From contig NZ_PDEP01000012.1 in NCBI RefSeq assembly GCF_002554705.1, positions 1-64,000 of the forward strand: a stretch of DNA of 64,000 nt. Direction: 5' to 3'. Source of the DNA: Longimonas halophila. Lineage in GTDB: Bacteria > Bacteroidota > Rhodothermia > Rhodothermales > Salinibacteraceae. How positions within the stretch are numbered: the first letter of the stretch is position 1; every line of letters begins with the position of its first letter. Position numbers and translations under genes: made by a program. Shown here in pieces: positions 1,030-51,635 of the stretch. The notes beneath the pieces are model-generated. The model did no database searches, was not told the DNA's origin, and saw only the letters and a list, made by a program, of their open reading frames with translations.

Positions 1030-1184
1030 CCCGCCGGAGACGTGCGCGCAGGCTTTTCAGGGGCACTACAAGCATGACCCGTCGGGCCCCTCTGCCCCGC
1101 TAAATTAGCCCAGACACCGCCCGGGACGTCCTTCCGACCGCTATCGGAATACCAGTCCCGGGCTACAAGTCGCTAAACAGATAC
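1030..1184 (-). mobile_element. MITE-like element, family A, decayed copy
   Basis: The minus strand starts with GTATCTGTTTAGCGAC and remains recognisably similar to the complete copy at 40709-40852 through the CTGTAGCCC, GACGTCC, CGGGGCAGAG and AGCCTGCG blocks. Only one terminal repeat (1172-1184 on the plus strand) is clear; the other end has decayed. It is too short to code for a transposase. Confidence 0.5.
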
Positions 1185-40106: not shown

Positions 40107-40131
40107 GCACCCGCCCGTGAAGACGGGTGCT
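40101..40131 (-). terminator. repeat-derived intrinsic terminator ending array 1
   Basis: On the minus strand the last, truncated repeat forms a stem beginning GCACCCGTC and ending GGCGGGTGC (nine pairs, one C-A mismatch) and is followed directly by TTTTTTG. The repeat's normal 3' part, with ATTGAAAG, is absent. Confidence 0.75.
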
Positions 40132-40303
40132 ATGGGTCGTATGCGGTGCCCTGCGGGGATTCCGTCGTCTTTCAATCCTCACCCTCCAATGAAGGAGGGT
40201 GCTATCGCTTTGGCAGCGCCCGCGTCTCCCAGATTAAGCTCTTTCAATCCCCCCCCCCGTGAAGGAGGGTGCTATCTGACGCCATGTGCAGGTTTTCTTT
40301 TCC

Positions 40304-40482
40304 GGTAGCGGTTCAATGGTAAGTGATTGTCATATGGCCGACATCATCGGAGCCAGACAACCCCCTCTGTCTATCGACATCTCCCCCTTGGAAAAGGGGG
40401 AGAAACCCGAAGGGAGAGGGGGTTCGAATAAGACAAACCTACATTCTACGATAGCCTTATCACTTAGCGTCTACCCACTACC
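40304..40482 (+). mobile_element. MITE-like element, family B, copy 1
   Basis: 179 bp with 24-bp imperfect inverted ends (GGTAGCGG...TAAGTGAT; 18 of 24 positions match), flanked by a perfect 8-bp duplication TCTTTTCC (40296-40303, 40483-40490). Inside are nested complementary runs (AACCCCCTCT / AGAGGGGGTT and CTCCCCCTT / AAGGGGGAG), so it would fold into a long hairpin. No coding capacity. It interrupts the trailer end of array 1. Confidence 0.85.
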
Positions 40483-40685
40483 TCTTTTCCCTTTGCTGGT
40501 CGCCTTGTAGCAGAATACACGGTCCTGACATCCCCCATTCCCTCACGCTGTTCGGGCCTTTCCCCCTTCACGAAGCGGCGTACATGTCGCGCAGCGACAA
40601 AGGGGGATGCTCGCCCCGGAAGGACAATGGAAAAACTTGCACACCGCGTTATCTGGGCACAGAAGACACACCTGGTTGCGTGGAT
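40483..40685. other. non-repeat DNA inside array 1
   Basis: Unique sequence between element B and the split repeat. It is longer than a spacer and has complementary CATCCCCC (40529-40536) and GGGGGATG (40602-40609). It may be another decayed insertion. No gene. Confidence 0.5.
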
Positions 40686-40708
40686 CTTTCAATCCTCACC
40701 TGCCCGTG

Positions 40709-40852
40709 GTATCTGTTTAGCGACCTGTAGCCCACGACTGGGAACTCAGCAGACGTCCTGGGCAGTGTTTAGCCCAAGTTGGAACGGGGCAGAGCCCCTG
40801 AGCAGCCTGCGTCGCACGGCGGAGCCATGCGACGAGAGGGCTAAACAGATAC
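40709..40852 (+). mobile_element. MITE-like element, family A, inside a CRISPR repeat
   Basis: 144 bp bounded by perfect 13-bp inverted ends GTATCTGTTTAGC / GCTAAACAGATAC. It lies inside one repeat: 23 bp to the left (40686-40708) and 14 bp to the right (40859-40872) together make exactly 37 bp. TGCCCG (40853-40858) repeats the bases TGCCCG(TG) to its left, a target duplication possibly shortened by two bases. No coding capacity. Confidence 0.85.
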
Positions 40853-41668
40853 TGCCCGAAGGCAGGTGCTATGTTGTCGAGACACTGGTATGCCCGCTCC
40901 ACCGTCTTCTTTCAATCCTCACCCTCCCGTGAAGGAGGGTGCTATTCCGTCTCGCTGGCCTCGTGCTGTATCTGCTCGACCTTTCAATCCTTACCCTCCC
41001 GTGAAGGAGGGTGCTATACGAGCTGCACGACGTGCTGAGTGGCCATAAGGCCTTTCAATCCTTACCCTCCCGTGAAGGAGGGTGCTATGTACCAGTGCGT
41101 GCCTTCGCGGTATGCGTACATCGCTTTCAATCCTCACCCTCCCGTGAAGGAGGGTGCTATAGGGCGTCGGGGACGGGGTCGTGCTGGCTGTCTACCTTTC
41201 AATCCTCACCCTCCCGTGAAGGAGGGTGCTATACGAGCGCCGCGTACACCGACGAGGACATGCTTCTTTCAATCCTCACCCTCCCGTGAAGGAGGGTGCT
41301 ATTAAGCGTTTGCGTCATAGGGCTGTCATCCACGCGCTCTTTCAATCCTCACCCTCCCGTGAAGGAGGGTGCTATCGTCTCGAGTCGCTTTGGGCAAGCG
41401 ACCCAGACAATCTTTCAATCCTCACCCTCCCGTGAAGGAGGGTGCTATTACGAGCGGGCCACGATGGAGACGGAGGGGCAAGAGCTTTCAATCCTCACCC
41501 TCCCGTGAAGGAGGGTGCTATGGAGACGGAGCCCGACCATACAACAACTCACTCCCTCTCTTTCAATCCTCACCCTCCCGTGAAGGAGGGTGCTATAGGC
41601 CGCCGCCCGTGATGGCAGAGACAAGGGTTGCCTTTCAATCCTCACCCTCCCGTGAAGGAGGGTGCTAT

Positions 41669-42090: not shown

Positions 42091-42381
42091 TTATAAAATA
42101 AGCGGATCATTGAAATCAATCGACTCATCAACACCATACGTCTCCACCGCCTCGGCAGCCGACATGGAGAGGCGATACAGGCGGATGCTGTCTTTGTCGT
42201 TGTCGATTTCCTGAAGCAGGTCGTCTACCATCTGCTCGTACTGCGCTTTCGACACACTGCACTCAAAGACTGATTGCTGCACGCGCTGCCCGTAGTTCGT
42301 ACACACCTGCGCCACGCGGCGCAACCGGCGCGCCCCGCCATCATCAACCGTGGCCACATCGTACGTCACAAGAATCTCCAT
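42091..42381 (-). CDS. cas2: CRISPR-associated endonuclease Cas2
   Basis: 96 residues. The ferredoxin-like fold begins MEILVTYDVATVDDGG with the conserved Asp in YDV, followed by the RRLRRVAQVCTNYGQRVQQSVFECSV block. With Cas1 it forms the spacer-integration complex. It ends the cas operon and is unusually far (243 bases) from cas1. Confidence 0.95.
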   Translation of the reverse strand: MEILVTYDVATVDDGGARRLRRVAQVCTNYGQRVQQSVFECSVSKAQYEQMVDDLLQEIDNDKDSIRLYRLSMSAAEAVETYGVDESIDFNDPLIL

Positions 42382-42624
42382 AGGAGCCGTTTGTTAGTTA
42401 ACGCAAGTTGCTGGGCTGTAAGCGCCCCACCTGAAGGAATGCAGTGCTTTTAGAGCCCGGAGCGGAGTCGAAACGCGAGTGGAGCGACTGATGGGTGAAT
42501 ACGAGCACGTCTCGGCATCGCACCTGTTTTACTCGCAGTGGGAGAGATTCTTCGTCGCTTTGCTCCTCAGAATGACAGATTGTGGAAGGTTGGTGTTCTA
42601 CCCCGCAGCTTGGGTCATTCATTA
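42382..42624. other. cas1-cas2 intergenic gap with dispersed repeat
   Basis: 243 bases with no gene. It holds GAGATTCTTCG...CTCAGAATGACAG (42543-42579), the same type as at 37842-37883. Cas1 and cas2 are usually adjacent, so this looks like later insertion. Confidence 0.55.
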
Positions 42625-43656
42625 TTATCGCACCAGATACGGGATGTACGTCTCCATGTCGCCGCGCAGCGTACGCGCCAGCAGCCGGGACTGCGCATGC
42701 GGGATCAGCCCAATCTCCATCGACTGATCCAAAAACGGATGCGTCACAGTCTGCTGCTTGCGCTCCTGATACGCCGTAATCACGGTTTTGCGTCCGTCAT
42801 CATTCAGCAGCACGGCCCCGCCGTCGGGTGTACGGAAGTCATCCGGCGTGAGCTGGCGGCGGTTGATGAGTGTAAGCGCCAGCCGGTCGGCAACAGGCGC
42901 GCGCAGTTCCTCCATCAGGTCCAACGCCAGCGAGGGACGCCCCGGTCGGGGGCGGTGCAGAAACCCCATCTGCGGATCCAGCCCCACGCCCTCCGCCGCC
43001 GACACGCAGTCGTTCAGCAGTAGCGTGTACAGAAACGAAAGCACCGCGTTAAACCGGTCACGCGGCGGACGCCGCGAGCGCCCGTTCATTTGAAAGGCGT
43101 CGCGCTGCTGACGGATATGATGCGAGAGCACGTCGAAATAGGTCTTGGCGGCTTCGCCCTCCAGTCCGCGTATGGCGTTGGGGTCGGTGGCCGACTCCAG
43201 CGTATCAAGCGTGCGCGCCATGCGTTTGGCGGTGGAGTGCAGGTCGGCCTGCCGGTCGTCGTCATCGACCGACCGGGCCGCGCGCACCACCATGCGGCGG
43301 CTGTTCTGCACCTTGCCCGCCACACAGGCCCGAGCAATGGCCGCCCGATCCGCTTCGGACTCGGCCTGTTCGTACTGCGCCTGCCGCAGCAGCACGTTTC
43401 CCGATTGCGGCCCCTGCACGCGAGCGCGGAACCGTCCGGTGTGGCTCATAAACACCACCGCTCGCCCATCTGCTGCGCATCGCCCCATAAGCGCAGGCGT
43501 CACGAGCACATTGCCAAAGCACACGATAGCGCCCAGATGATGCAGCGGAATCTGCGCCTTCTTGTCGCCCTCGACCTCCAGGCGCACCGTGTCGTGGTCA
43601 AGGCGCAGGTACGAGGGCTCGGTGGTTACGTAGAGCGTGTTGAGGAGCTGGCGCAT
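42625..43656 (-). CDS. cas1: CRISPR-associated endonuclease Cas1 (type I-C)
   Basis: 343 residues. The type I-C N-terminus reads MRQLLNTLYVTTEPSYLRLD. The catalytic glutamate is in GLEGEAAKTYF (near residue 177), with the His in MGFLHRPRPGRPSLALDLMEEL and the acidic residue in LDLMEEL giving the metal site. It integrates spacers with Cas2. It follows cas4 after 62 bases. Confidence 0.96.
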   Translation of the reverse strand: MRQLLNTLYVTTEPSYLRLDHDTVRLEVEGDKKAQIPLHHLGAIVCFGNVLVTPALMGRCAADGRAVVFMSHTGRFRARVQGPQSGNVLLRQAQYEQAESEADRAAIARACVAGKVQNSRRMVVRAARSVDDDDRQADLHSTAKRMARTLDTLESATDPNAIRGLEGEAAKTYFDVLSHHIRQQRDAFQMNGRSRRPPRDRFNAVLSFLYTLLLNDCVSAAEGVGLDPQMGFLHRPRPGRPSLALDLMEELRAPVADRLALTLINRRQLTPDDFRTPDGGAVLLNDDGRKTVITAYQERKQQTVTHPFLDQSMEIGLIPHAQSRLLARTLRGDMETYIPYLVR

Positions 43657-43718
43657 AGAGCGAAAAGCCGTTTATGGGGGAAGCGGACGTGCACGTGTGA
43701 ATGCGAGAGGCCATGTTG

Positions 43719-44357
43719 CTACGCCGCACCGGGCGGGTCGTCGATGCGAAAGAGCGCGCGCTGCCACCACGACTGGCGGTCGGAGGCGGCCATGGGCTCA
43801 GGCATGCACACGCGCTGCAGCGAGCACGGCGGACAGCGGTCGTCGTTCACGGGCGGCGGCACGCGGTTCGATTCCAGCATAGCCCGCACCTCGGCCACGA
43901 TGTCTTCGGTGGCCTGGCGCAGCGACGCATCCAACTCGACTTCCTGCCGACGGCGTGCGCCGGTGTGGTAAATCGCCCCTGCCGTTACCGACGCGCCGGT
44001 CATCTCCTCCAGACAGAGCGCCTGCGCACACAGCTGGATGCGCGCCGGACGGTGGTAGCGCTCAGCACCATGTTTGTACTCCACTGGATACGGCGTCTCT
44101 CCCTGAAACTCCACCACATCGGCGCGGCCCACCAGGCCCAGCCGGTCGGAATACAGCGGCAGGCTGCGCACAATGCGCACGTCGTCGCGTGTGTTGTCGA
44201 GCGGCAGATCCACGCGCTCATGATCGCGGTTGCCCCGCAGCGTGTAGATGTTCTCCTCGTAGCTCTGCTCCACATGGATCAGCGCACACTGCCGCGGACA
44301 GTACGCGTAGTGCTCCAGCGCTGAAATCATGATGCGGTCGTCGTCGGCCCATTCCAT
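43719..44357 (-). CDS. cas4: CRISPR-associated exonuclease Cas4
   Basis: 212 residues. An iron-sulfur cluster is expected from YCPRQCALI near the start and CPPCSLQRVC near the end. The RecB-like nuclease core shows GRADVVEF, PVEYKHG and QLCAQALCLEE. In type I-C systems Cas4 trims prespacers and selects PAM-bearing ends. The start at 44357 (MEWADDD) gives the family length; an upstream ATG at 44396 adds 13 residues. Confidence 0.94.
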   Translation of the reverse strand: MEWADDDRIMISALEHYAYCPRQCALIHVEQSYEENIYTLRGNRDHERVDLPLDNTRDDVRIVRSLPLYSDRLGLVGRADVVEFQGETPYPVEYKHGAERYHRPARIQLCAQALCLEEMTGASVTAGAIYHTGARRRQEVELDASLRQATEDIVAEVRAMLESNRVPPPVNDDRCPPCSLQRVCMPEPMAASDRQSWWQRALFRIDDPPGAA

Positions 44358-44413
44358 AGATGTGGCAGTCGTTACGAGCGTACGAGACGGTATCAAGCCA
44401 TTGGTGCGCCCCG

Positions 44414-45271
44414 CTATATGAGCACAGACAACGTGACGCCATCGGGCAGATTGGCGTCGTCAACGGCTACCGCATAGTCCGAAAACGAACGCGGCGCATC
44501 GCTCTCGGTATGCGCCGTGATCCGGTCGAAGAGCGTGTGAGCAGGCGCATTGCCCAGCTTGTTGTCGTGGCTGAACACGAACAGTCCACGCAGGCCCATC
44601 ATGCCGCGCGACGCCGATCGGTCGAGCTCCCAGCACATCTTAAGCGCGTTCCAGAAGAGTTCCAGGTCGTCGCCGTCGAAGCCCGTCTGGTCGGCCAGCG
44701 TCGGATTGTAAAAGCCGTGCCCGCGATAGAGCCCGTACGGCACGATGGCTTTGCGGCCAAACATGCTTTCGCCTTTTTCTTCGCGCGATTCCTCCGAGAT
44801 CGGTACCGAGCGTGTAATGGTCATATCCATCGGGGCAATCGGGTCGATGGAGCGCGCAAAGGTAAGCTGCATGGGGCCCAGCACTTGCCCGCAATTCAGC
44901 TCTTTGTGGCTCATCACCGCACCAAACGAGCGTACATCGAAGAACTCCTGGCACATCCAGGATCGCGCTTTGCGCACATCAGCTACGTCCGCCTCGCCCG
45001 ATTCAAGATCCAGGGCCTCGTAGGCCTGCTTCTGCTTGTCATGCAGCACATCGCCCTGCCGCACGTAGATTTTGTGCTTGGCCTCGTCTGATGCGTGGTC
45101 GATGTAGTTGCGAATCTTGCGCTTCACCGATACATCGGTCACCAATCCCTGCATCGTTTCGGGATCGGTACGGGGCAGGTTTCCGGCGTCGGGATCGCCA
45201 TTGGGATTGCCGTCGGTTACGTCGAAAAGATAGACGAAGTCGTGGCGCTTTTCGGGGTCGAGGTGACTCAT
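44414..45271 (-). CDS. cas7: type I-C Cascade backbone protein Cas7 (Csd2)
   Basis: 285 residues. The I-C signature NPNGDPDAGNLPRTDPETMQG appears near residue 20, followed by KRKIRNYIDH and YVRQGDVLHDKQ. Multiple copies coat the crRNA spacer. It has 57 bases before cas4 and 53 after cas8c. Confidence 0.95.
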   Translation of the reverse strand: MSHLDPEKRHDFVYLFDVTDGNPNGDPDAGNLPRTDPETMQGLVTDVSVKRKIRNYIDHASDEAKHKIYVRQGDVLHDKQKQAYEALDLESGEADVADVRKARSWMCQEFFDVRSFGAVMSHKELNCGQVLGPMQLTFARSIDPIAPMDMTITRSVPISEESREEKGESMFGRKAIVPYGLYRGHGFYNPTLADQTGFDGDDLELFWNALKMCWELDRSASRGMMGLRGLFVFSHDNKLGNAPAHTLFDRITAHTESDAPRSFSDYAVAVDDANLPDGVTLSVLI

Positions 45272-45324
45272 GGTAGAATGGGAAGTTTGGGGATAGTCGA
45301 TTGCGCGAGTGGATTCGGCGCGGG

Positions 45325-47013
45325 CTATGCAACGTCCGCTTTTTCGTCTTCTGCCTTCTTCTTTTTGGCGGCTTCGATGCGCTCAAACATAGCCTGACGC
45401 TCGTGATAGTAGCCCAGCGCAAATTCAGCCTGCGCTTCGGGCGAGAGCGTTTTGGGCATCTTTCCAGGTGCAATCTGGCTGGTGATTGCTCCAATCCGCT
45501 TCTGAATATCGGTGTAGGCGGATTTGTTGTTCTTACGCAGCTTTGAAAGATGCGCCTGCGCCTGGCCAAGTAGCTTGCCGAACACGCTTTGAGGCGTGGT
45601 TGAGGCGCTCTTAAAGAACTTGTCAGTGATCGTGCTATTCGGGTTGTCGAGCGCCTGAGACTGGGCCTGTTCCAGCGCCGAGAAGAGACGGCCCAGTTGA
45701 TAGGCCACGCTGTCGTAGGTCGGGTCGAGAGCAGAAGGCATAGGAATGCTGTGTGTGATGAGATAGAGTTTGAGGAGGGATGCGCGTTGGGCAGAGACTT
45801 CGCCAAGCGCCTGGTTGCGGTTTAGCGCCTTAAGCAGAAACGGATACGGCACAGGACGTCCGGTGAGGGCGGTGCGCATCAGGCCCTCTTCCATCCACGG
45901 CGGGATGTCGTTCAGGCTTTTGGTGCCCGAAGATACCTGTATGAGACCCATAAGCAGCGCAAAACTGCCGTGGTATCGCCCGTTCACTTCCATCGCCTCA
46001 AAGTATTGGGCCAACCGGGTCTGCACCTGCCCCACAGTAGCCCGCTCGAAATGACGGACGATGAGGCGCCCCTGGTTTTCTTGGAGGCACATCGTCCAGA
46101 GCGGCGTGTCGTTTTCGGTGAGTCTGCCGTCGTAGTAACTGCTTAGCAGCTCCTCGATGTAGTTGGTGTCACCGTCTTGAAGCGGATTCAAGCTGAACGA
46201 GGTATCCATTGGATCCGTCCAGTAGACCCAATACGTCTCGTTGAGGGTGTACGTGTAATCATCGCTATCTACGAGCCAGGAAAGCGCTCTTCCAACTCTG
46301 CGCTGCGATGAATGCGTGAGCCAAGCATTTTCAGAGCGGCCCAATCCGTATGACTCGAATGCTTTTTCATTGTACGACGAGAGTGCACTCCCAAATCGAC
46401 GAACTTCGTAGTGCGTAGCGGCTATTCCACCATCTTTTCCTGTTAGTGCACACGGCCCCGTCCTGTCGGCTTTCTCACTCTCCAGTGAAGCCATGAAGTC
46501 GGCCCACCATGCTTGTACCGCAGGCATCTCATGAAGCAGCGTGCCATCAACGTTCACAAGGACGATGTCTTGGCGTCCCATACTTGGATCAATCGGTGCC
46601 AATTGGACACGCCCGTACCGTACCTCAGCCATAAAACGAAGGTCGCCATACAAGACCGCAGTGTGGGTTTGCACAAACTTCCAAAGGGTCTGTACTTCCG
46701 GAAGGTCGAGGTCGTTAGCTACTTGCTTCACCAAGTCGCGGTATCCCTGGTGTGTCTTTTGGCCACGGTCTTTTTTAGACACCTTGTCCCGCAGCCCAAA
46801 TGTATATTCAGCAGTGTCGATCAGGCGCGGACGGACTGCAGTTCCGGCACGTCCACGGTCTGGCACATTGGCTCTGCCTTCCGTTGGTATCAGATTATAT
46901 GAGGTGTCTTTTGTCCTTAGTTTGAGTATCCATCGCACCGGTCGCCTTTTGTAAGCATCTGGAGGAAGGCGATCTGTGATCTGGTCATGTACATCAAGCA
47001 GCGAATCAAGCAT
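45325..47013 (-). CDS. cas8c: type I-C large subunit Cas8c (Csd1)
   Basis: 562 residues. It starts MLDSLLDVHDQITDRLPPDAY and has the Csd1 pattern GKDGGIAATHYEVRRFGSALSSYNEKAFESYGL, then LLSSYYDGRLTENDTPL and a C-terminal helical region. It recognises the PAM and can also yield the Cas11-like small subunit from an internal start. Its first eight bases overlap the end of cas5. Confidence 0.94.
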   Translation of the reverse strand: MLDSLLDVHDQITDRLPPDAYKRRPVRWILKLRTKDTSYNLIPTEGRANVPDRGRAGTAVRPRLIDTAEYTFGLRDKVSKKDRGQKTHQGYRDLVKQVANDLDLPEVQTLWKFVQTHTAVLYGDLRFMAEVRYGRVQLAPIDPSMGRQDIVLVNVDGTLLHEMPAVQAWWADFMASLESEKADRTGPCALTGKDGGIAATHYEVRRFGSALSSYNEKAFESYGLGRSENAWLTHSSQRRVGRALSWLVDSDDYTYTLNETYWVYWTDPMDTSFSLNPLQDGDTNYIEELLSSYYDGRLTENDTPLWTMCLQENQGRLIVRHFERATVGQVQTRLAQYFEAMEVNGRYHGSFALLMGLIQVSSGTKSLNDIPPWMEEGLMRTALTGRPVPYPFLLKALNRNQALGEVSAQRASLLKLYLITHSIPMPSALDPTYDSVAYQLGRLFSALEQAQSQALDNPNSTITDKFFKSASTTPQSVFGKLLGQAQAHLSKLRKNNKSAYTDIQKRIGAITSQIAPGKMPKTLSPEAQAEFALGYYHERQAMFERIEAAKKKKAEDEKADVA

Positions 47014-47719
47014 CGGGATGGGTATTTTGGTAGAGCGCTTGTGGGATGTGCATCACACCGTCATCTAACGCGGCGTGGAAGAAGTGCGGCGTGGCCTCGT
47101 AATGCTGCGTCTCGGCGTTGATCTCATCGTATGCAATGTCGAACAGCATGCGCCCGAGGGGGCGATCGCCAAGCACCGGGGTGTCCTGGTCGGTCGGCGG
47201 TCGAAACCAGGCGGCAAACTCGCGGCAGCCCATGTACGGACGCTTAAAGCACGCGCCCCGGTCTACACGCCGCCGAAACTGATCGCGGTACTTGGCCGGA
47301 TGCTCATTTTTGCCGTAGCCGACCAGATGGACATCAGCCTCAATCAGATACGCAACATCTTTGAGCGCCAGCGTCGAACGAAGGGCTCGGACGCTCGGGG
47401 TGTTAGGGCGGCTTTTCTCTTTTGCATCCACATCAATGGTCGATACCTCTCGTCCCTCCATCCAGTCTTTTTTGCTGGGGGAGACGGCTTTCTTTTTGAC
47501 TTCGCTGCGGCGCAGTTGAATGTGCTGAATGGGCTGGAGCGGCGTAATCGTCTGGATGCGCCACATGAACGCTGGCTTCCAGAAAATAGCCTCCAGAATG
47601 CCGCGTGCCGCTGACGGTGTCATCACGTCGTAGCTTACGCGCTCAACCTTCATCTCTGGACGCGTGAAGCAGGCAAACGTGCTGCCTACAACCACTTGCA
47701 ATGGAGCATATTCAGACAT
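47006..47719 (-). CDS. cas5: type I-C crRNA-processing protein Cas5 (Cas5d)
   Basis: 237 residues. The N-terminal RAMP fold has ACFTRPEMKVERVSYDVMTPSAARGILEAIFW, and HPAKYRDQFRRRVDRGACF (about residues 140-158) and KRPYMGCREFAAWF follow. Type I-C lacks Cas6, so this protein cleaves the pre-crRNA at the repeat hairpin and stays on the handle. The segment HPAKY holds Lys143-Tyr144, where the B. halodurans enzyme uses Lys-His; I cannot align this reliably. Confidence 0.94.
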   Translation of the reverse strand: MSEYAPLQVVVGSTFACFTRPEMKVERVSYDVMTPSAARGILEAIFWKPAFMWRIQTITPLQPIQHIQLRRSEVKKKAVSPSKKDWMEGREVSTIDVDAKEKSRPNTPSVRALRSTLALKDVAYLIEADVHLVGYGKNEHPAKYRDQFRRRVDRGACFKRPYMGCREFAAWFRPPTDQDTPVLGDRPLGRMLFDIAYDEINAETQHYEATPHFFHAALDDGVMHIPQALYQNTHPDA

Positions 47720-47789
47720 ACATCAACTCGGAAAATGGGTAGAGAGTGAGAGGGTGTGCGCGACCAGCGCAGGTGCGGCTCGGGAAGGG

Positions 47790-49949
47790 TTACCAGATCA
47801 TCTGCTCGATTTGTTCGGGCCGTTCCACATCGAGTTGCAGCCCATACGTGTCGTCGTAAAACATCGAATCCCAGACCCAAACGTCAGGTTCGGCCTCCCG
47901 CACAATGCCGTTGTCAAGCGCTTTGTTGAACTCCCAGTTGTACACGCTCACCATGTACGGCTGCAAGGCACGCCGCACGTGCGGTGGGATGTAGCCCAGG
48001 TGTTTAATCTGACTGCGGTGCGTGTTGAAAATGGGCATTGCCTCGCCGTAGTCCACAAGCACATCGGTGGCGTCTTGCGTAATCAGACGGTAGGCAGCCG
48101 CTACGTCTTCGTAGTTGAAGCGGCGCTGCATATCCTGAACGCCATGCTTGTCTGTTGGAAAATCGTTGTAGAGCTCGGCAAAGTACTGCTTGGCGGCGTC
48201 GGGGCTGTTGAGATCTACACCGTCGCGAAGCATCCCCAGCGCTATTTCTCGGCCTGTTTTGTAGGGCGGTGGCGGACACGATCCGTCGTCCAGCCGGAAG
48301 ATGATGACCCTCCCTGCCTCTTGCTCCCGATTGCGGTTGCAGCGTCCAGCGGATTGGATGATGGAGTCGAGCGGCGCAGCGTCTCGAAGCACCAGCGGGA
48401 AGCTGATGTCTACGCCCGCCTCGATGACCTGCGTTGATACCAGGCGTACCGGCGTGCCCGTGCTCAGTTGCTTCTTTGCCACGCTCATGACTTCGTCACG
48501 ATGCGCGCGGCAGAGTCGTGTCGAGAGGTAGTACGCATCAGCGGCTTCGGCAACACGCTGCGCATCGGCGGTAGTGTTGCAGATGGCGAGTGCCTGTTCT
48601 GCACGCTGCATCTCGCGGGCCACCCGCGCCGCGCTCCATGTTGCATCGGTTTTATCGTGGTAGCGCACCCGTTGCATCCGGTCGTACAACACGTCTGCAC
48701 CATCAATAATCGGAGTGGACGGGTAATGCCCCACGGGTCCGTAACCGGGCTGTGTAGCCGTGCAGAGGACAACCGAACTCGTGTACAGACGGGTAAGCTC
48801 ACGCAAGGCCCACATGGTAGGCGCCACCAACCCAGCGGGCACGCTCTGCACCTCATCGAGCACAATTACGCTGTTGGCATACCGGTGCAGCTTGCGCAGG
48901 CGACTGTTTTGGTTGGAGAAAAGCGTTTCGAGCAACTGCACTGTGGTCGTGACTACAACAGAAGCCTCCCAGTTCTCGGCAGCCAGCACGTCACGTTTCT
49001 CGCTCTCGGTAGGCGCAAAGTCTGCCTTATGGGCACGTTGTACAGCCGAGTGATGCTCAAGCACAGCATCCGCCCCAAAGATGTCGCGGTACTCCCTGGC
49101 ATTCTGGTCGATGATTGATGTGTAGGGGAGCGCGACAATCACGCGATCTAAGCTATGCTTTTTCGCATGTCGCAGCGCAAAGGCCATGACCGAACGCGTC
49201 TTTCCGCCGCCAGTTGGCACCGTCATGTTGTACATGCCCTGCGCTCCATCGCCCGAAGCGAGCGCATCTTCGTAGATCTGGTTACGGATGCGGTTGATCT
49301 CCGTCGTTGGGTTCGCGAACTGCTTTTGGTCGGCTTCAAGTCGCTCCAGGAGCACGCCGGGCCGCGGGCCTGCGCTTCTGAGCTTCGCCATGTCAGCGTT
49401 GAAGTGCGCCTCGGTGTCCAGGTAGTCAGCATCCACGAGTGCGGAGTGCACGAAGCGCGTCCAGAGTTCCAGTTGAAGCACCTGCTCTTCGTTGGCTCCC
49501 GTAAGTTCGGGCATCTGCGTCTCGTCTCCATGCGCGCTGCCCGATGCCTCGATAAATGCGTTCCCTTTTGCAAGCGCTTCTTGGATGCGGGGCTCTTTCT
49601 TTTTAGCGGCAATACGTTTCTTGAGCCGAAGCGCATTCGGAAGTCCGCCGTGGTGCCCAGCGACGCAGATAGCAGGCGTGATCGCGGGCGCATCAGCCCC
49701 CTGTAGCATGCCTACGCTGGAGTGATCGCGTTCGCCTGGATTGTAATTCTCATCGGCGAGAAACCGCTGCACACGAGGATGCGCCTTGCCTGCGTCGTGC
49801 CACCAGCCCAGCCAGCGGGCTATCGCGGCGCTGTCGAACGGCGCGGCAAAGTCCGCCGCCCGCTCGGCGACGTTGCGGGCATGGTCGTGGAGCAGCTGTG
49901 GCTGACCGCCCGACTCCGGAGCCGAATGGGCGATGAGAGGCGCAGACAT
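47790..49949 (-). CDS. cas3: CRISPR-associated helicase-nuclease Cas3
   Basis: 719 residues. The N-terminal HD nuclease domain has LLHDHARNVA, WLGWWHDAGKAHPRVQRFL and VAGHHGG; the helicase has motif I VPTGGGKTRSVMAFALRHA, motif II IVLDEVQSVPAG and motif VI QSAGRCNRNREQ. It is recruited by Cascade to unwind and shred target DNA. It is the first gene of the cas operon, 70 bases before cas5. A candidate promoter (TTTG 20 bases from TACTCTAA on the minus strand, about 50000-50020) is weak. Confidence 0.95.
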   Translation of the reverse strand: MSAPLIAHSAPESGGQPQLLHDHARNVAERAADFAAPFDSAAIARWLGWWHDAGKAHPRVQRFLADENYNPGERDHSSVGMLQGADAPAITPAICVAGHHGGLPNALRLKKRIAAKKKEPRIQEALAKGNAFIEASGSAHGDETQMPELTGANEEQVLQLELWTRFVHSALVDADYLDTEAHFNADMAKLRSAGPRPGVLLERLEADQKQFANPTTEINRIRNQIYEDALASGDGAQGMYNMTVPTGGGKTRSVMAFALRHAKKHSLDRVIVALPYTSIIDQNAREYRDIFGADAVLEHHSAVQRAHKADFAPTESEKRDVLAAENWEASVVVTTTVQLLETLFSNQNSRLRKLHRYANSVIVLDEVQSVPAGLVAPTMWALRELTRLYTSSVVLCTATQPGYGPVGHYPSTPIIDGADVLYDRMQRVRYHDKTDATWSAARVAREMQRAEQALAICNTTADAQRVAEAADAYYLSTRLCRAHRDEVMSVAKKQLSTGTPVRLVSTQVIEAGVDISFPLVLRDAAPLDSIIQSAGRCNRNREQEAGRVIIFRLDDGSCPPPPYKTGREIALGMLRDGVDLNSPDAAKQYFAELYNDFPTDKHGVQDMQRRFNYEDVAAAYRLITQDATDVLVDYGEAMPIFNTHRSQIKHLGYIPPHVRRALQPYMVSVYNWEFNKALDNGIVREAEPDVWVWDSMFYDDTYGLQLDVERPEQIEQMIW

Positions 49950-50248: not shown

Positions 50249-51292
50249 ATAGCACCTGCCTTCACGGGCAGGTGAGGATTGAAAGATGGACGTCATGTCT
50301 TCACGCAAGGTGTTCACGAATAGCACCTGCCTTCACGGGCAGGTGAGGATTGAAAGGGAAGTGCAGGCTCGCGCCCCGCAGGTCTTTTCCATAGCACCTG
50401 CCTTCACGGGCAGGTGAGGATTGAAAGGCAATTTTGCAAACTCAACCCCGAAGTCCAGATGAGATAGCACCTGCCTTCACGGGCAGGTGAGGATTGAAAG
50501 ATTTCGTGGCGATCGACCATCCGGCCCAGGCGGCGATAGCACCTGCCTTCACGGGCAGGTGAGGATTGAAAGGACAGCCATGATGGGTGTGCGTTTGTGT
50601 GCGTAGATAGCACCTGCCTTCACGGGCAGGTGAGGATTGAAAGGTATTGCTCATAAGCCTCAGTGCTAACCGTTAGCACAATAGCACCTGCCTTCACGGG
50701 CAGGTGAGGATTGAAAGACGGCCTTCACCTGGAAGTCCCGCGTGCGCGTCTCATATAGCACCTGCCTTCACGGGCAGGTGAGGATTGAAAGACGTAGCTC
50801 TGCACGGCCTCCGGGTCAGCGCCGTCAAATAGCACCTGCCTTCACGGGCAGGTGAGGATTGAAAGATCCACGATCGCGCTGCTCGCACTCCAGGCGGTCG
50901 ATAGCACCTGCCTTCACGGGCAGGTGAGGATTGAAAGGACGTGAGCACTGAGCGACACGCTGTCGCCTTCGGATAGCACCTGCCTTCACGGGCAGGTGAG
51001 GATTGAAAGGAACTCGTCGGTGTAGAGCGTCCATGTGAGTGGATATAGCACCTGCCTTCACGGGCAGGTGAGGATTGAAAGACCGATGACGCGATTGAGC
51101 GCTTCGCCGAGCTTGCATAGCACCTGCCTTCACGGGCAGGTGAGGATTGAAAGACGGTCGACCAGGTGGCGGCGCTCAGTGCCACGCTGATTGATAGCAC
51201 CTGCCTTCACGGGCAGGTGAGGATTGAAAGCTGCTACGTGCTCAGCTGGAGCGATGACGACCTGGATAGCACCCGCCTTCACGGGCAGGTGC
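50249..51292 (+). CRISPR. CRISPR array 2 (type I-C)
   Basis: 15 repeats of 37 bp with spacers of 34-40 bp. Repeats start at 50249, 50320, 50391, 50464, 50536, 50607, 50681, 50755, 50829, 50901, 50973, 51045, 51117, 51194 and a truncated last one at 51266. The repeat begins ATAGCACCTGCC, has the hairpin CACCTGCC / GGCAGGTG, and ends GGATTGAAAG. The body repeats look identical, unlike array 1's trailer end. The leader is on the left. The stem differs from array 1 by two compensating base pairs. Confidence 0.97.
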
Positions 51293-51302
51293 TTCTTTTT
51301 TG
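51269..51302 (+). terminator. repeat-derived intrinsic terminator ending array 2
   Basis: The last repeat keeps GCACCCGCC / GGCAGGTGC (nine pairs, one C-A mismatch) but lacks GGATTGAAAG; CTTCTTTTTTG follows instead. The matching structure ends array 1. Confidence 0.75.
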
Positions 51303-51520
51303 GGTAGCGGTTCAATGGTAAGTGATTGTCATATGGCCGACATCATCGGAGCCAGACAACCCCCTCTGTCTATCGACATCTCCCCCTTGGAAAAGGGGGA
51401 GAAACCCAAACGAGTCCGCAGGACGACTCATGGAGCGCAGCGGAATAAAGGGAGAGGGGGTTCGAATAAGACAAACCTACATTCTACGATAGCCTTATCA
51501 CTTAGCGTCTACCCACTACC
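51303..51520 (+). mobile_element. MITE-like element, family B, copy 2
   Basis: 218 bp, the same ends and fold as copy 1, with about 39 extra internal bases (roughly 51409-51447) including GAGTCC...GGACGACTC. A perfect 8-bp duplication CTTTTTTG (51295-51302, 51521-51528) flanks it, so it inserted into the T-run of the array 2 terminator. Confidence 0.85.
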
Positions 51521-51635
51521 CTTTTTTGGTATCAGGGCAGCACGTCCCGCATCAAGCCCCCGCAAAGCAGGACCGAACCCCGCCGGTCGGGATATGATGG
51601 TGTGCGGTATCCTCATGTGCACGCTCCCCACCGTT

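Follow-up and report, generated by a model that had tools for sequence, protein, structure and literature searches.

A MITE family that inserts beside palindrome tips, probably moved by an IS66-type transposase, is the likely source of an interrupted CRISPR repeat in Longimonas halophila

Insertion sequences (IS) that target REP sequences have been reported for the IS3, IS110, IS4, IS256 and IS5 families, a list that does not include IS66 (PMC1525189), and IS1111 inserts into palindromes in Coxiella (PMC5896051). The element family described here resembles both in entering palindromic repeats, whereas REP-targeting IS use REP sequences and this family uses unrelated palindromes, including a CRISPR repeat, in one geometry. 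IS1272 of the IS1182 family also chooses stem-loops that have no common sequence, deleting the stem-loop and making no duplication (PMC5678879). In contrast, neither of these hallmarks was found at the sites of our family, where insertion leaves the stem in place and creates an 8-bp duplication at a fixed offset. The name RAYT stands for REP-associated tyrosine (HUH) transposase. BIME and REPIN mosaics, which are moved by RAYT, share with our family a short, non-coding, palindromic, mosaic and multi-copy character, but they differ from it in that the latter has 13-bp terminal inverted repeats (TIRs) and 8-bp duplications (PMC2817692, PMC3116915). These duplications speak against mobilization of the family by RAYT. 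REPs, as a rule, are not known to leave duplications of this kind. IS elements have been found inserted in cas genes and in CRISPR loci elsewhere (PMC10359306).

The window, i.e. the whole 64,000-nucleotide stretch of L. halophila DNA that was analyzed, contains a complete type I-C cas operon flanked by two CRISPR arrays, here called A and B, and a 144-bp element that interrupts a repeat at the end of array A. We attribute this insertion, with a probability of about 0.8, to an IS66-mobilized family of MITEs that aims at palindrome tips. The features concerned are as follows.

937-964, no strand: intact perfect 28-bp palindrome GTAGGGACACGGCGCGCCGTGTCCCTAC, which represents the commonest target of the family in its empty form; occupied copies are known
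1081-1184, minus strand: decayed relative of the element with a single end, which abuts half of a GTAGGGACACGGCGCGCCGTGTCCCTAC palindrome; inner boundary approximate
40686-40708, minus strand: CRISPR repeat half of 23 bp in plus-strand reading, ending in the duplicated 8-bp target TGCCCGTG (40701-40708)
40709-40852, plus strand: 144-bp MITE with 13-bp perfect TIRs and a modular palindromic interior; related pieces in its own and the sister genome
40709-40721, plus strand: left TIR, GTATCTGTTTAGC
40840-40852, minus strand: right TIR, GTATCTGTTTAGC (reads GCTAAACAGATAC on the plus strand)
40853-40858, plus strand: TGCCCG, the right copy of the target duplication (TGCCCGTG minus TG)
40859-40872, minus strand: remaining CRISPR repeat half, 14 bp as read on the plus strand
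40909-41668, minus strand: array A, 11 regular 37-bp repeats with spacers of ~35 bp
42091-49949, minus strand: type I-C cas operon (cas3, cas5c, cas8c, cas7, cas4, cas1, cas2)
50249-51230, plus strand: array B, 14 exact copies of the insertion-target repeat (intact, 'empty' sites)

The crRNA strand of array A was taken as minus from the ATTGAAAG end of its repeat and from the cas2 side, and the crRNA strand of the interrupted repeat is also minus. The sequence-only reading of the locus had described an element with perfect 13-bp inverted ends inside a CRISPR repeat, and both ends were confirmed at the positions listed above; 13-bp ends gave five matches at up to two mismatches against 0.44 expected. 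Joining 40686-40708 to 40859-40872 yields CTTTCAATCCTCACCTGCCCGTGAAGGCAGGTGCTAT, which is the exact 37-bp repeat of array B and differs from the consensus of array A, CTTTCAATCCTCACCCTCCCGTGAAGGAGGGTGCTAT, at four stem positions that make up two compensated pairs. The claim that the two halves (23 + 14 bp) rejoin to a perfect repeat thus holds against array B and fails against the consensus of the array that surrounds them. The TGCCCG repetition noted at the flanks is real; in the light of the whole family it represents an 8-bp duplication, TGCCCGTG, that lacks TG on the right. A 6-bp duplication, as this repetition had been read initially, was dropped because TG would then have to move and because family members show 8 bp, and comparison with the intact repeat suggests that TG was lost from the right copy at the CRISPR site. 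The proposed insertion into the hairpin loop is supported by the intact repeat, which contains the palindrome CACCTGCC-CGTGAA-GGCAGGTG and is entered at the offset typical of the family (CACC[TGCCCGTG]AAGGCAGGTG, offset +3.0). A mechanical frame of 101 aa crosses the window copy and bears no marks of a gene, and an Rfam scan of the window returned tRNAs only. The identical 144 bp in an unrelated CRISPR array, which the sequence-only reading would have counted against itself, was not found, and the genome of the sister species lacks these CRISPR repeats.

By inspecting the genome stretches around its copies, we delineated a family of modular non-autonomous elements of 63-331 bp with the ends GTAYSTGTTTAGC, present in the host genome, in a sister species of the same genus and in scattered members of the class, as the sequence-only reading had proposed to check. 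The 3.73-Mb host genome has 18 exact GTATCTGTTTAGC ends, a number which indicates that the ends are repetitive rather than due to chance, plus variants, the commonest being GTACGTGTTTAGC. In the sister genome, 69 ends were found at no more than one mismatch (8 for a reversed-pattern control), and BLAST searches with pieces of the element gave 48 matches in its own genome and 20 in the sister species, whose copies lie at positions that coincide with contigs assigned to an uncultured Rhodothermaceae bacterium. The suspected mobile element with a target duplication is borne out by these repetitive ends, by the many other copies and by the family-wide 8-bp duplications. It has the properties expected of a MITE, being short and non-coding, with 13-bp inverted ends, no transposase inside, 8-bp target duplications and dispersed copies that amount to dozens of ends per genome. 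A second, decayed copy had been suggested at 1030-1184, and a decayed relative with a single end was confirmed, terminating at 1184. The portion of the element at query positions 76-128 often recurs without the ends, so that the interior appears to be a mosaic of smaller palindromic units. The predicted fold of the 144-bp element is far stronger than that of its shuffles (z-score of -6.0 as DNA and -5.1 as RNA). Elsewhere in the host genome (for example, at L015, L040 and L045), palindromic units seem to sit within the loops of others, such as a GGGGCCGAAGGTCATGC..TTGTGCC unit within GCGTCGCACGGC..GCCATGCGACG, as if formed by repeated insertion into palindrome tips.

Comparison of the flanks of 31 paired copies revealed perfect 8-bp duplications in eight, duplications with 1-2 mismatches in nine, and more than two mismatches in the other 14. 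Twenty empty sites were rebuilt, namely those of the perfect and near-perfect copies, those of two copies whose ends are shifted by 1 nt, and a site of the genome G021 obtained by joining; the CRISPR site was rebuilt with its intact repeat. A site passed if its hairpin score was at least 4.5 and the dyad lay 2.5-3.5 nt off the center of the duplication. Eighteen of the 20 sites passed, the CRISPR site included, and the two failures were L136, with a 5-bp stem at the right offset, and L111, where a palindrome is absent. Sliding the duplication over its own flanks gave 0-2 of 20, except for nine at +/-6, which are the mirror image of the same palindromes, and random positions passed at a rate of 1.5% for the window and 1.9% for loci rich in repeats. 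Because six sites fall on one repeated 28-bp palindrome, the set represents ~15 distinct targets, 13 of which pass. The thresholds and the offset window were fixed after viewing this first set, and the independent test is provided by a second set of 17 sites from other genera, fetched later by the end pattern alone. In that set, the offset is seen at 14 of 17 sites when the threshold is lowered to 3.5 and at 12 when it stays at 4.5, and all nine sites with perfect duplications are among the 14. Sliding gives mostly 0-5 of 17, the mirror positions giving 9 and 6. The target palindromes are unrelated in sequence (CTGTACA-AC-TGTACAG, TCGGACGC-TCCT-GCGTCCGA, TAATGGAAGC-GCTTCCATTA and others). The family almost always inserts at one fixed spot beside palindrome tips, and the CRISPR repeat was hit because CRISPR repeats are palindromes and the family targets palindrome tips generally. 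Among open-licence papers, assessed mostly from titles and abstracts, none was found to describe IS66 elements that target palindrome tips, or this geometry.

The mobilizer is likely of the IS66 family (NF033517 / PF03050), which, together with its derived MITEs, has 8-bp duplications and ends beginning with GTA as seen here; the window copy differs in having no transposase. On contig 10 of a class relative (G181), an end GTACGTGTTTAGCGA lies ~30 bp ahead of a 369-aa open frame that matches IS66, with 137.9 bits over 302 aa for NF033517 (below the cut-off of 180) and 68.8 bits for PF03050. This frame is truncated at the C-terminus and has no recognizable right end. In a genome of the same family (G021), an element with these ends stands at several contig breaks, its copies running off the contig ends as those of a multi-copy element would, and joining two of the contig ends gives GTCGCGAGGC[GCGCCTCG]CGAC, where a palindrome carries a perfect 8-bp duplication at the same offset. 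The first 60 residues of its N-terminal frame align to the N-terminus of an IS66 transposase from G169, and 1 of 2000 shuffles aligned equally well; Pfam and NCBIfam scans of this fragment were uninformative. A further genome has a complete IS66 element, 1616 bp long and with a single frame (L206, on G108:C27), and its ends, GTAACTGGTTAGC, are identical in 11 of 13 bases. Many contigs of that genome end inside this element, and its 8-bp duplications, inferred from matching contig ends, lie in AT-rich targets that do not look palindromic. Palindrome targeting is hence not universal among IS66 elements, so that the preference, with IS66 as the likely mobilizer, would belong to an IS66 sub-lineage. 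Searches for an IS66 gene in the host and sister genomes found none, which means that the mobilizer was lost, is unassembled or is another enzyme. Neither the protein fragment, used as a query in 113 genomes, nor PF03050, in 245 genomes, led to a complete autonomous element with these exact ends, and no complete autonomous IS was found in plasmids and viral contigs, the searches overall giving fragments and chance coding matches only. The sequence-only reading had called for a full-length IS with the same ends, and the IS66 frame behind one end goes part of the way. IS256-like genes with weak PF03050 matches, in G024 and G015, have no such ends and were rejected as candidates.

An enzyme of another kind, with identical targeting of palindrome tips, may have moved the family in place of an IS66-type transposase, as the host and sister genomes carry no IS66 gene and the sole transposase found behind an identical end is truncated. 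We consider this unlikely given the 8-bp duplications, the ends starting with GTA, the IS66 frame directly behind the G181 end and the IS66-like N-terminus in G021. The element family is common in the host genome and IS insertions in CRISPR loci occur elsewhere, so an ordinary MITE with no target preference might have hit the repeat by chance. This is very improbable, since 18 of 20 sites and, in the replication with other genera, 14 of 17 have a palindrome at the fixed offset, compared with 1-2% of random positions and 0-2 of 20 slid sites. Slightly less credible again is stem-loop replacing transposition in the manner of IS1272, with the element swapped for the target hairpin; the similar targets, stem-loops of no common sequence, would fit it, but IS1272 removes the stem-loop and duplicates nothing, while here the stem persists beside an 8-bp duplication and an IS66 frame stands behind an identical end. 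Finally, the leader-distal position and the strong RNA structure of the insertion could suggest that it is under selection, insulating or silencing the last unit of the array, a reading to which we give almost no weight, as the insertion occurs once, the sister species has no such repeats and equivalent insertions exist in many unrelated palindromes.

In the mechanism that we propose for the IS66-mobilized family, the 144-bp MITE would have been moved in trans by an IS66-type DDE transposase acting on the 13-15-bp ends GTAYSTGTTTAGCGA. The transposase lineage would pick its targets by shape rather than by sequence and cut at a fixed stagger beside the dyad, ~1 nt past it on one strand and ~7 nt into the stem on the other, and the staggered cut would produce the 8-bp duplication. 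The CRISPR repeat would be one such palindrome, the element having landed in its loop as in other genomic palindromes, and the form of the target that is recognized is presumably an extruded hairpin or cruciform. A broader proposition, to which we give even odds, is that an IS66-type lineage recognizes extruded hairpins (cruciforms or single-stranded foldbacks) and joins the ends at about +1 and -7 from the dyad, so that palindromes of any sequence, including CRISPR repeats, are targets and the nested palindromic mosaics of these genomes are built as elements repeatedly enter one another's tips. Targeting of DNA shape at near single-nucleotide geometry is unusual among DDE transposases and would be a means of probing how hairpins or cruciforms are extruded in cells. 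It would also offer a general reason for CRISPR repeats and other palindromes serving as landing sites, and a route for the growth of mosaic palindromic repeats in bacterial genomes.

The suggestion that the insertion blocks crRNA processing found no support: in the RNA structure predicted for the crRNA strand, the repeat retains its basal stem, and the element stacks on this stem and extends the loop. The interrupted unit is the leader-distal one in the regular array, next to a rearranged trailer, and little effect on immunity is expected from this position; the consequences for CRISPR function are probably small. The two arrays (40909-41668 and 50249-51230) differ in two compensated stem pairs, CACCCTCC/GGAGGGTG versus CACCTGCC/GGCAGGTG. 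Both trailer ends have in common a block of ~200 bp (40288-40488 and 51285-51525, 96-99% identical), which in array A parts three degenerate repeats from the remainder. With this block beside both leader-distal ends, exchange between the arrays may account for the B-type repeat that ends array A. On the transcribed strand, a T run follows the last leader-distal repeat of each array (40107-40135 and 51266-51310), and the repeat hairpin together with the T run looks like an intrinsic terminator.
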